DNA of 64,000 nucleotides from Sphingomonas sp. HDW15A (GTDB lineage: Bacteria > Pseudomonadota > Alphaproteobacteria > Sphingomonadales > Sphingomonadaceae). Positions 51,247 through 58,642 of this stretch are shown piece by piece (position 1 is the stretch's first letter; every line of letters begins with the position of its first letter). The notes below the pieces were generated by a model. That model had not been told where the DNA came from. It saw nothing but the letters and a program-made list of their open reading frames with translations, and did no database searches. Location of the stretch: assembly GCF_011301715.1 (NCBI RefSeq), contig NZ_CP049870.1, forward strand, positions 186,001 through 250,000, read 5' to 3'. The translations under genes and the position numbers were made by a program.

Positions 51247-52224
51247 ATGAACACTCGTCCGCGCATCGCCCTGCTATCCAACCCGCGCTCGACCGGGAAT
51301 ATCGCGCAACTACCGCGAATCCGCGCCTTCTGCGCGGAGCACCCCGACGTCTTTCACTATGAAGTTGAACATGCTCACCAGATCGGCGACGCCATGCGCA
51401 CCATCGCTCGGGTTCAGCCCAAGCTGCTGGTCATCAATGGCGGTGACGGAACCGTCCAGGCGGCGCTCACAGAACTTCATAACGGCGGGCATTTCCAGGG
51501 CGCCGCGCCGCCGGTGGCGGTACTTCCGAGCGGCAAGACCAACCTCATTGCGATGGACCTCGGGATTCAGGGCGATCCGGTGCGCAGCCTCGAAAAGCTT
51601 ATCGATCTCGCGCGTTCCGACTTCAGCTCCAGCCTCGTTGATCGCGAGCTCATCGCGCTGAGCTTCGAGGAGAACGGCGACAAGCCCGTCATCGGCATGT
51701 TCCTCGGCGGTGCGGGCCTTGCCGATATCATGCTTTACTGCCGCAACCGTATCTATCCGCTCGGCCTTCCCAACGGCATCAGCCATGTCATCACGGCCTT
51801 CGCCGTCGTCCTTCGCCAAGTGATCGGACTCAAGGCGAAGTTCCTCCCTCCCGAACCGCGACCGCTCAGAGTGTCCGTGCACAAGGGTGGTGCGATCACG
51901 GGCAAGTTCGCGCTTCTCGCCGTCACGACGCTGGAAAAGCTTTTGCTTTCCGGCGAGCTCGGCAGCGCCGGCGGGGGACCGCTCAAGTTCGTTGCCGTCG
52001 AGCAGCGCGCCGGGTCCCTTCTCGGGGCATTCTTCGCAAGCCTGGGCGGGCGATTGGGCCGGACGAAGCTTACCGGCGTGCATGTCGAAGAGGCCGACGC
52101 AATCAGCATTGAGGGCGATTCCAGCGACGTCATCCTCGACGGCGAGACGTTTCGCGCAGAACGCGGCCGGCCGATCTTCCTCCGCCCCGCAACGCCCCTG
52201 TCGTTCGTTCGCCTCGCCGCCTGA
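51247..52224 (+). CDS. Diacylglycerol/sphingoid-base kinase family lipid kinase
   Basis: A 325-residue DAGK-catalytic protein. ATP-binding NGGDGTVQAAL (GGDGT at 65-69) and LPSGKTNLIA are the family's nucleotide loops, and the C-terminal half is the usual beta-sandwich. This fold phosphorylates diacylglycerol, sphingoid bases or ceramide. The location beside sphingolipid genes makes a ceramide or DAG kinase plausible; Caulobacter's ceramide kinase CpgB is of this family. It is divergent from lptF. Confidence 0.85.
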   Translation: MNTRPRIALLSNPRSTGNIAQLPRIRAFCAEHPDVFHYEVEHAHQIGDAMRTIARVQPKLLVINGGDGTVQAALTELHNGGHFQGAAPPVAVLPSGKTNLIAMDLGIQGDPVRSLEKLIDLARSDFSSSLVDRELIALSFEENGDKPVIGMFLGGAGLADIMLYCRNRIYPLGLPNGISHVITAFAVVLRQVIGLKAKFLPPEPRPLRVSVHKGGAITGKFALLAVTTLEKLLLSGELGSAGGGPLKFVAVEQRAGSLLGAFFASLGGRLGRTKLTGVHVEEADAISIEGDSSDVILDGETFRAERGRPIFLRPATPLSFVRLAA

Positions 52225-52232
52225 GGCCATCC

Positions 52233-53084
52233 GTGTCTCTTGACGAACTGGTTGCCGAAGAGCTTGCGCGGCCGGTCGATCCGCGTGTCGCCGCCATGGC
52301 CGAGGCGATTGCCGCGGAACATGGCGAAGCGAGCCGCGCGGTCCTGTTCTACGGAAGCTGTCTCCGCGACCAGCCGATCGACGGGTCGATGCTCGATTTC
52401 TACCTGATCGTCTCGGACTATCGTTCGGCTTATCCCAAGCGTTGGCAGGCTGCTGCGAATGCGCTGATTCCACCCAACGTCTTCCCGTTCGCGCAAGATG
52501 GCCTTGCAGCCAAATATGCCGTGCTTAGCGAGACGGACTTTCACCGCCTCAACGGCCCTGAAACCCTCAACGTTTCGGTCTGGGCGCGTTTCGCGCAGCC
52601 TTCGCGGTTGGTGTGGACGAAGGACGAGGCCGCTCGCGGCAAAGCCATAGCGGCCGTAGCGCGGGCCGCGCCGACATTGTTAGGGTCGGCCGGCCGGAAT
52701 GCGGGTGAGGACATTCTCGACTGGTGGCGCCGCGCGTTCCGCCTGACTTATTCCGCCGAACTTCGCGCCGAGCGGAAGGGAAGGGCGCAGTCAGTGGTCG
52801 ACAGCGAACCTGACCGCTATCGCCGTTTCGGGGAAGCGGCCGCGCCGATTGTCACCGCTAACGCCGGTAAGTGGAGGCTGCGCCGTGCGCAGGGGAAAGC
52901 GTTGAGCGTTTTGCGACTGGCGAAAGCCAGCGCGACCTATGCCGGCGGCGCTGAATATATCGCCTGGAAGATCAATCGGCACGCCGGGACCTCGATCGCG
53001 CTCAAACCCTGGCAGAAGCGTCACCCGCTGCTTGGAGCGCTCAGCCTGCTCCCCCGGCTGCTGCTTTCCGGGGCGATCCGATAG
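52233..53084 (+). CDS. Tam41-like nucleotidyltransferase (putative CDP-lipid synthase)
   Basis: A 283-residue protein with a nucleotidyltransferase-like signature YGSCLRD (40-46) followed by MLDFYLIV (53-60), then PNVFPFAQDGLAAKYAVLSE and a block on VSVWARFAQPSRLVW. This order resembles mitochondrial Tam41, which makes CDP-diacylglycerol from phosphatidic acid. The call rests on pattern similarity by eye. The GTG start is 8 bases after the lipid kinase stop, so the pair is co-transcribed and probably acts in succession. Confidence 0.5.
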   Translation: MSLDELVAEELARPVDPRVAAMAEAIAAEHGEASRAVLFYGSCLRDQPIDGSMLDFYLIVSDYRSAYPKRWQAAANALIPPNVFPFAQDGLAAKYAVLSETDFHRLNGPETLNVSVWARFAQPSRLVWTKDEAARGKAIAAVARAAPTLLGSAGRNAGEDILDWWRRAFRLTYSAELRAERKGRAQSVVDSEPDRYRRFGEAAAPIVTANAGKWRLRRAQGKALSVLRLAKASATYAGGAEYIAWKINRHAGTSIALKPWQKRHPLLGALSLLPRLLLSGAIR

Positions 53085-57118: not shown

Positions 57119-57128
57119 GGTCGCCAGG

Positions 57129-57728
57129 ATGAGTGAAGGCAAGTCCGCTATCGAGCCGTCAAAGGTTCCGCTAACGCCTGACGAGCGCCGTTTGCTTGGA
57201 ATTGGCCATCCGGATTACGAATTCCCCAAGGAGGTCCACAACCTCCTGATGGCGGCCAACCAAACGAACATGACCCTGTCGGAAATGGCCGACTCCAAGG
57301 CTTCGATCCTGCTCGGTGCAAGTTTCGTTGTCTTCTCGCTCTCCATCGGCAGCATTGCCGAGGGCAAGATCAATTTCCCGATGCTGGTGCTGACGCTCTT
57401 CTCATTCATTGCGACGATCTTCGGAGTCCTCACCGTCAGGCCCAACCGGATGGTCAAGGCCAGGGTCCCGATACCGGGTAAGAAGGTCAATATCCTGTTC
57501 TTCGGAAGCTATATCGACTGCCCGCGCGAGGAATATGTCGACGAAGTGATGCGGGTATTGTCTTCCGAAGAAGAAACCTATCGCCGGCTGGCGCGAGATC
57601 TGTGGGACCATGGCCACGTCCTTCGCGACAACAAATATCGATGGCTCTACTGGAGCTTCACATTCTTCCTGTACGGAATGGTCGTCACCGCCGTTGCGCT
57701 GATTGTCCAGCTCGTCTTCCTGAACTAA
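57129..57728 (+). CDS. PycTM/DUF5706-like membrane protein 2
   Basis: A 199-residue paralogue of the preceding gene (shared ADSKASILLGASFVVFSL and REEYVDEVMRVL). It has two membrane helices in the first half and one at the C-terminus (TFFLYGMVVTAVALIVQLV). It begins 10 bases after gene 1 and its stop overlaps the convergent cerR stop. A duplicated effector-type membrane pair, so possibly a hetero-oligomer. The role is unknown. Confidence 0.75.
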   Translation: MSEGKSAIEPSKVPLTPDERRLLGIGHPDYEFPKEVHNLLMAANQTNMTLSEMADSKASILLGASFVVFSLSIGSIAEGKINFPMLVLTLFSFIATIFGVLTVRPNRMVKARVPIPGKKVNILFFGSYIDCPREEYVDEVMRVLSSEEETYRRLARDLWDHGHVLRDNKYRWLYWSFTFFLYGMVVTAVALIVQLVFLN

Positions 57729-58642
57729 AGCCAGCCTATCGCTTCATACCAGCGGGCCGTGTCGCGGATGCCAACCCGCGTGGCGATCCGCGGCGACCAG
57801 ACCGATTTCGGGGCGGCCAGCTCGGGGCTGACAACCCAGTCGGGGTGACAGAAATAGCTCGCGCGATCGGGCGTCAGCTTGGCATTTCTGCCGCGAACGA
57901 GTCGATCGAGGCGGGCGGCAGCCCTGACAACCGCCGACGGGGCGGAAAAGATTTTAGCGTTCGTTCCAAAGGCTGAAGCGAGCAGCGACGCGAACTGGCG
58001 GTGCGTATAGCCGCCGGGATGGGCATCGTCTGGCTCGATTAGCATCTGTGCCGGAGCCGCCGGATCGGCGAGCGCGACCAGCAGTCGGGCGAGGTCATCG
58101 ACGTGGATCAGAGAGAGCTTCCCCTCAGGCGGCATTAGCATCAGGCCGCGCTTTGCCATGCGGAAAAGCTCAAGGGTTTCGCGGTCGCCGGGCCCATAGA
58201 CGGCAGGGGGCCTGACGATCACCCAATCCAGGCCGGATGCACGGACCAGATGCTCCGACCGTGCCTTGCTGGCGCCGTACTGCGAGAGTCTGGGCTCGCG
58301 AGCAGCGAGTGACGACACATGCACGAAGCGACGGACGGCGTTTCTTTTCGCTGCTTCGACGACATTGGCGGTGCCGCCGACATTGCCTGCCTCGAATCCG
58401 GCCATGTCGGGCGCATTGATCACCCCTGCAACGTGGACGATGGCGTCGGCACCGGCGCAGAGTCGGTCAAGACTCCCGGAATCCTCAAGCGAGCCGGAGA
58501 TCCACGTCACGTCTTCGCGGCAAGCCTGCTCGCGACGAGTGAGCGCGTGCGCGGAGTGGCCCGATGCCACAACCTGATCGATCAGGCGCGTACCGACGAA
58601 GCCGGTTGCTCCGGTAATTGCCAGCTTTAGAGCGGCGACCAG
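57725..58642 (-). CDS. cerR: CerR-like NAD(P)-dependent ceramide reductase
   Basis: A roughly 305-residue SDR/epimerase-fold protein of the NDUFA9-like group. The nucleotide loop GATGFVG is within the first 20 residues, and the active site has YGASK. Sphingolipid clusters in Caulobacter carry a protein of this group (CerR) that reduces the 3-keto group. There is no ATG, GTG or TTG in frame before the loop; CTG at 58642, seven bases after AGGAGG, or CTG 58624 are the candidate starts. It overlaps the end of obg. Confidence 0.75.

Follow-up and report, generated by a model that had tools for sequence, protein, structure and literature searches.

In sphingomonads, PycTM, a membrane protein family labelled as a Pycsar anti-phage effector, is mainly an accessory of acpR-spt, the genes for a specialised acyl carrier protein (AcpR) and serine palmitoyltransferase (SPT). 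This conclusion follows from three observations. PycTM lies 0.5–1.9 kb from SPT in 49 of the 53 PycTM-bearing genomes of the family (51 of 58 matches), in every case divergently. No cyclase was found in the fetched flanks of 75 PycTM-acpR loci (tblastn with six cyclase domains; 121 loci searched). Outside the family, none of 10 PycTM loci from the class has SPT or AcpR in its flanks, which span at most 1.5 kb. The Pycsar effector label of Pfam and PADLOC is questioned here, as PycTM mostly marks the entry point of sphingolipid synthesis in this bacterial family. Among the open-licence papers listed by literature searches, none links PycTM to sphingolipids.

Organization of the locus

The analysed window is a 64,000-nt stretch of DNA from Sphingomonas sp. 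HDW15A, and the locus extends over positions 46467–58642 of it (Table 1). It very probably serves ceramide synthesis, head-group modification and export. The locus is of a known kind with a new, unexpected component, two PycTM genes that lie between acpR and cerR on the opposite strand. The PycTM B and CerR genes are arranged tail-to-tail with a 4-bp overlap.

An initial annotation of the region 51247–58642 listed a lipid kinase, a nucleotidyltransferase (NTase), a hybrid kinase, SPT, AcpR and CerR, and ORF lists and family scans place all six as it described. The 3.6 kb that it gave for SPT, its ACP and the CerR-like reductase corresponds to a span of 3,566 bp. Synteny, the predicted Tam41 fold of the NTase and published work on the Caulobacter crescentus counterparts CC_1160 and CC_1161 all strengthen its proposal that ceramide genes cluster here with head-group genes, but the proposal was incomplete. 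The PycTM pair, LptF/LptG and the ceramide synthase (CerS) and desaturase candidates were overlooked, and not all relatives share the head-group part.

Table 1. Features of the sphingolipid locus in the analysed window
Feature	Position	Strand	Evidence
CerS candidate (bCerS/YghO-like acyltransferase), 377 aa	46467..47600	-	place and bCerS/YghO-like appearance
Fatty-acid desaturase/hydroxylase	47641..48822	+	PF00487, E 1.3e-27
LptG permease	48806..50059	-	PF03739, E 3.9e-70
LptF permease, two reading frames, break near 50660	49900..51167	-	PF03739 pieces 1-138, 138-351
CpgB-like (ceramide kinase-like) lipid kinase	51247..52224	+	PF00781 (DAGK_cat), GGDG motif
Tam41-fold nucleotidyltransferase (NTase), CpgC-like	52233..53084	+	fold prediction
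CHASE3 hybrid histidine kinase, CckA-like paralogue	53041..54939	-	family scans
SPT (serine palmitoyltransferase), bacterial type	55077..56279	-	NF047603, 811.6 bits, above cut-off 670
AcpR, specialised acyl carrier protein	56276..56524	-	PF00550; stop overlaps SPT start
cis-element upstream of acpR, genus form	56554..56568	-	3 mismatches to family form
PycTM A, 173 aa, predicted three-helix membrane protein	56597..57118	+	PF18967, E 6e-27; PADLOC PycTM, E 7.3e-16
PycTM B, 199 aa	57129..57728	+	PF18967, E 5.4e-19; PADLOC PycTM, E 1.2e-13
CerR, putative ceramide reductase (SDR), CTG start	57725..58642	-	PF01370

Distribution of PycTM and its linkage to SPT

The PycTM counts come from overlapping family, genus, class and named-genome collections and are not independent of one another. 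In the family, PycTM is present in 53 of 149 genomes, 52 of which score above the curated cut-off. The seven family matches that are not SPT-linked lie elsewhere, and the one in genome G117 is located near a contig end with AcpR adjoining. PycTM occurs in 14 of 61 genus genomes, and all 13 further congeners with PycTM have flanks that contain either CerR or both AcpR and SPT. The class search identified PycTM in 12 of 385 genomes, including nine outside the family that contain the 10 unlinked loci. Among the best 80 of at least 534 PycTM coding stretches in named genomes, 57 have SPT within 4 kb, and the SPT-linked genomes include Sphingopyxis, Novosphingobium, Erythrobacteraceae, Blastomonas, Sphingobium and Sphingomonas. 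Twelve of the remaining loci of this set, six of them from genomes named Novosphingobium, share one neighbour, a Glu/Leu-type dehydrogenase in the two that were scanned. Several PycTM loci that are not linked to SPT belong to Caulobacteraceae.

SPT is encoded in 147 of the 149 family genomes (E up to 1e-120), and PycTM is absent from 94 of these 147; ceramide synthesis therefore does not need PycTM. In loci that lack PycTM, cerR often directly precedes acpR. PycTM keeps its site beside acpR in two syntenic backgrounds, the second of which has another gene set adjoining acpR in 11 regions, with and without PycTM.

Relationship of PycTM to Pycsar effectors

Motifs surrounding the first helix and preceding the third are invariant among PycTM proteins, and PycTM A and PycTM B of the window each contain three hydrophobic segments. 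Comparison with solved structures gave no significant sequence or fold match. PycTM has been described as a pore-forming or membrane-impairing effector (PMC11224242, PMC12489823). The locus shares the membrane protein family (PF18967, PADLOC PycTM) with the Pycsar anti-phage system, which combines PycC and PycTM, but here no adjoining cyclase was found, and the constant partner is acpR-spt.

The main rival to a membrane partner or brake is an abortive effector. The PycTM pair would be a true membrane-disrupting effector that guards the envelope, and it would kill or arrest the cell in response either to cyclic nucleotides made by a cyclase encoded at a distance or to a perturbation of sphingolipid synthesis. 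We consider such a function somewhat unlikely. It agrees with the family models, since each of the 27 aligned members is matched by PADLOC PycTM, and 27 by a 2TM effector model, and with the patchy presence of PycTM in the family and genus. Five class III cyclase-like matches are also observed elsewhere in this genome, and the PycTM of one family member (L088) adjoins a guanylate cyclase with GAF and PAS domains, itself a match to PADLOC PycC. However, L088 and L136, neither of which is SPT-linked, were the only loci matched in the cyclase search, which leaves the 75 PycTM-acpR loci without a match. Moreover, PycTM occupies a constant site across many genera rather than varied islands, and one motif set is strongly conserved.

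Inherited synteny, in which one old insertion beside acpR was followed by many losses and PycTM has no sphingolipid function, is unlikely. Distance matrices from 72 loci yielded correlations of 0.63 for AcpR-PycTM, 0.32 for SPT-PycTM and 0.44 for SPT-AcpR, with none of 2000 permutations as high. The AcpR-PycTM correlation is expected from shared descent, and the cis-element of acpR, described below, is independent of PycTM; both points fit a passenger. By contrast, the PycTM-acpR order is stable while its surroundings changed between the CerR-Obg background and the second background. The weakly supported PycTM tree requires the linkage state to switch 7 times, compared with 21.9 times in shuffles, although only 2 of these switches are forced by starred branches; PycTM has thus used other sites too. 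In this tree, PycTM A of the window groups with L123, next to eight rows without SPT linkage, most of them Caulobacteraceae (support 84, without a star). The row of PycTM B is very long and its placement uncertain. As a result, simple descent at the acpR site is not established for these two genes.

A conserved element upstream of acpR

A 15-bp element, GCAATCGCTTGSCAA, precedes acpR by 43–49 bp in many loci of the Sphingomonas type; in Sphingopyxis the distance is about 70 bp. The aligned start of the window form lies 45 bp upstream of the acpR start codon. With up to three mismatches allowed in the 150 bp upstream of acpR, the element is found in 41 of 75 PycTM-bearing and 14 of 20 PycTM-less regions, in some at other positions, and the same stringency gives matches in 13 of 1210 random stretches drawn from these loci. 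Across 10 whole genomes, eight exact copies of the element are present, one per genome and each upstream of acpR. The same genomes contain 12 more matches with one mismatch, of which that in G112 precedes acpR and one lies in this genome, elsewhere; a reversed control pattern gave six matches with up to one mismatch. The cis-element belongs to acpR-spt and not to PycTM.

Ceramide synthesis genes

The acpR gene encodes a PP-binding ACP and directly precedes spt in an operon with a stop/start overlap. The reductase, the CerR candidate, belongs to the SDR family and occupies a conserved place among the fetched relatives. Its frame contains no ATG, GTG or TTG before the NAD-binding motif within the sequence read. 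The start at 58642 given by the initial annotation is correct, with a CTG at this position, a TTG at the same place in two congeners (L086 and L095) and the NAD-binding motif downstream.

The protein encoded at 46467–47600 matches no Pfam or NCBIfam family. Its appearance recalls the bCerS/YghO-like family, and we take it to resemble a ceramide synthase; with its position in the locus, this makes it a CerS candidate. Seven of the 40 regions that were fetched have it conserved at 48–73% identity (one match partial), and two loci from other families carry a homologue beside NTase-SPT (41–42% identity). The desaturase is a candidate ceramide acyl hydroxylase by analogy with CC_0202 (PMC11324152). 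The acyl-ACP synthetase gene AasR is reported to lie at a distance in Sphingomonadaceae (PMC9386255). In C. crescentus, CerR is described as periplasmic, and SPT and bCerS as cytoplasmic (PMC11087976).

Lipid kinase, nucleotidyltransferase and hybrid kinase

The NTase has no Pfam match in the family scan, but its predicted fold over residues 13–236 is that of Tam41. It thus resembles the CDP-DAG synthase Tam41/Mmp37 in predicted fold and differs from it in sequence, with 15% identity and no match to the Pfam Tam41 profile among 26 NTase members at E up to 5. It also differs in its linkage to a ceramide-type kinase and SPT. In other alphaproteobacterial families, the lipid kinase adjoins the NTase in 25 of 29 loci, and SPT is near the NTase in 20 of 29. 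The arrangement is that of a lipid kinase beside a CDP-DAG-synthase-like enzyme near SPT, and in the window the hybrid kinase gene separates the NTase from SPT. The NTase is predicted to use CTP on ceramide phosphate in a CpgC-like manner. Its Tam41 fold lends independent structural support to the published proposal of nucleotide-dependent activation of ceramide-1-phosphate by CpgC. Because the locus fits the published ceramide-kinase and CpgC steps, its head-group reading is largely known biology.

It is very unlikely that the kinase and the Tam41-fold enzyme act on ordinary glycerolipids as a CDP-diacylglycerol shunt, since SPT accompanies the NTase in other families as given above and a CC_1161 mutant of C. 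crescentus is reported to have lost CPG (PMC11324152), although C. crescentus CpgB also phosphorylates diacylglycerol in vitro (PMC10331486) and CDP-DAG is the product of Tam41 (PMC7018664).

The CHASE3 and HisKA matches of the hybrid kinase are below their own Pfam cut-offs, and the best match to the CckA model in the genome lies outside this gene. The hybrid kinase gene often recurs in this neighbourhood and has no tie to lipid chemistry in these data.

Export genes

A genome-wide LptF_LptG search identified three matches, all in the locus, which represent one LptG and one LptF in two frames. LpxC was found in none of 39 family genomes (this genome and 38 relatives), and 4 of 14 control genomes were positive. 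As the LptF/LptG pair of the locus is the only one in the genome, its cargo would be a sphingolipid. In C. crescentus, second copies of LptC, LptF and LptG have been proposed to transport phosphosphingolipids (PMC11324152), and a literature search of open-licence papers on Lpt transport of Sphingomonas sphingolipids to the outer membrane returned nothing beyond this paper. The presence of the only LptF/LptG pair in a single locus makes such transport testable in LPS-free sphingomonads.

The LptF frame break in this strain counts against an export step. The LptF match coordinates, worked out by hand, lie in one frame in 18 relatives for which both parts were fetched. The break is either a sequencing error or a real lesion.

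Proposed pathway and role of PycTM

The best explanation of the locus as a whole, to which we assign about an even chance, is that it makes, decorates and exports ceramide, with the PycTM pair as an accessory of acpR-spt. Ceramide would be made by SPT with AcpR, the CerS candidate and CerR, and would then probably be hydroxylated by the desaturase. The CpgB-like kinase would phosphorylate ceramide, and the Tam41-fold, CpgC-like enzyme would activate the phosphate with CTP, to give a CDP-ceramide-type intermediate and then ceramide phosphoglycerate. The product would leave through the LptF/LptG pair in this genome, in which LpxC was not found.

The PycTM pair would not be a Pycsar system but an accessory of acpR-spt that is specific to this lineage, expressed from a divergent promoter region shared with acpR. 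A membrane-anchored cytosolic segment of PycTM may act on the acyl-AcpR/SPT flux, either as a tether or, in a role like that of ORMDL, as a brake. ORMDL/Orm regulators are small multi-helix membrane proteins tied to eukaryotic SPT, and their likeness to PycTM would be one of role only. PycTM is accordingly put forward as a candidate membrane regulator of bacterial SPT. The chance that PycTM functions together with acpR-spt, and is neither an effector nor a passenger, falls a little short of even. The narrower reading is doubtful, in which a phage-defence-type effector has become dedicated to regulating or tethering the acyl-AcpR/SPT step and LptF/LptG there export ceramide lipids.

Conservation of the locus and comparison with Caulobacter

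Synteny in other sphingomonads, which the initial annotation named as a check, is upheld in part. The 38 SPT regions that were fetched besides the window were chosen partly for PycTM and are not a random sample; in 14 of them NTase, kinase, LptF and LptG lie downstream of SPT, and 11 of these 14 have CerR on the opposite side as well. This recurrence indicates that the gene grouping is not due to chance. A further locus, L108, contains the same gene set in a rearranged form. The NTase is matched in 117 of 149 family genomes (E up to 1e-5), but among the 63 best-listed of these, for which placement was determined, it is within 6 kb of SPT in 39 and distant or on another contig in 24; the remaining 54 have weaker matches. 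The same-genus genome G077 keeps CerR, AcpR, SPT, the hybrid kinase, LptF/LptG and the desaturase, but its genome gave no NTase match, and the region fetched from it contains no kinase.

The C. crescentus phosphosphingolipid cluster CC_1152–CC_1168 comprises cpgA-D, spt, acpR, cerR, cerS and LptC2/F2/G2 (PMC11324152, PMC9386255). The window shares with it the kinase-NTase pair next to SPT, AcpR, the CerR and CerS candidates and an LptF/LptG pair, a likeness drawn from publications. Unlike that cluster, the window has a CHASE3 hybrid kinase between SPT and NTase, a desaturase inside the locus and the PycTM pair between cerR and acpR, and its genome has a single LptF/LptG pair and no LpxC match. 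The control genome of C. vibrioides gave no PF18967 match. In S. wittichii, the genes carry the locus tags Swit_3897, 3899, 3900 and 3908 (PMC9386255), and the gene order, judged solely from these tag numbers, appears to agree with that of the window locus.

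LptF and flanking features of the ceramide locus

The LptF gene of the ceramide locus is the sole LptF copy in the genome, based on genome-wide matches, and is broken across two reading frames near position 50660. The two LptF parts share one frame in the 18 relatives whose fetched regions contain both. A conserved cis-element precedes acpR and is found with or without PycTM genes at that site; of 10 genomes, 8 carry its exact family form, each a single time. CTG is the apparent start codon of CerR, with TTG in its place in two congeners. The locus is flanked by a 678-residue protein that contains a beta-lactamase-fold serine hydrolase/peptidase domain and adjoins ObgE.

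PycTM genes and cyclases

A tandem pair of PycTM genes at the SPT locus is also present in another genome (G140), and in a congener (G145) a 1.4-kb gap holding small ORFs separates acpR from the PycTM gene. At locus L088, a GAF-PAS-guanylate cyclase that matches the PADLOC PycC model immediately adjoins PycTM, and the two genes form a Pycsar-like pair within the same family. A whole-genome search of the 2.34-Mb HDW15A genome (G000) yielded five class III cyclase-like matches outside the ceramide locus. At a second PycTM site, represented by L126 and 11 similar loci, PycTM adjoins a Glu/Leu-type dehydrogenase. Domains were scanned in L126, where a large oxidoreductase with cyclic-nucleotide-binding domains lies nearby, and the dehydrogenase was also identified in L087.

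Coordinates of the features (bare numbers refer to the window)
Feature	Coordinates
LptF	49900-51167
cis-element	56554-56568
CerR	57725-58642
Hydrolase/peptidase-domain protein	59386-61422
Tandem PycTM pair, G140	G140:C1:3579871-3580840
acpR-PycTM arrangement, G145	L086:8374-9638
PycTM with adjoining cyclase	L088:9861-12720
Second PycTM site	L126:6597-12038
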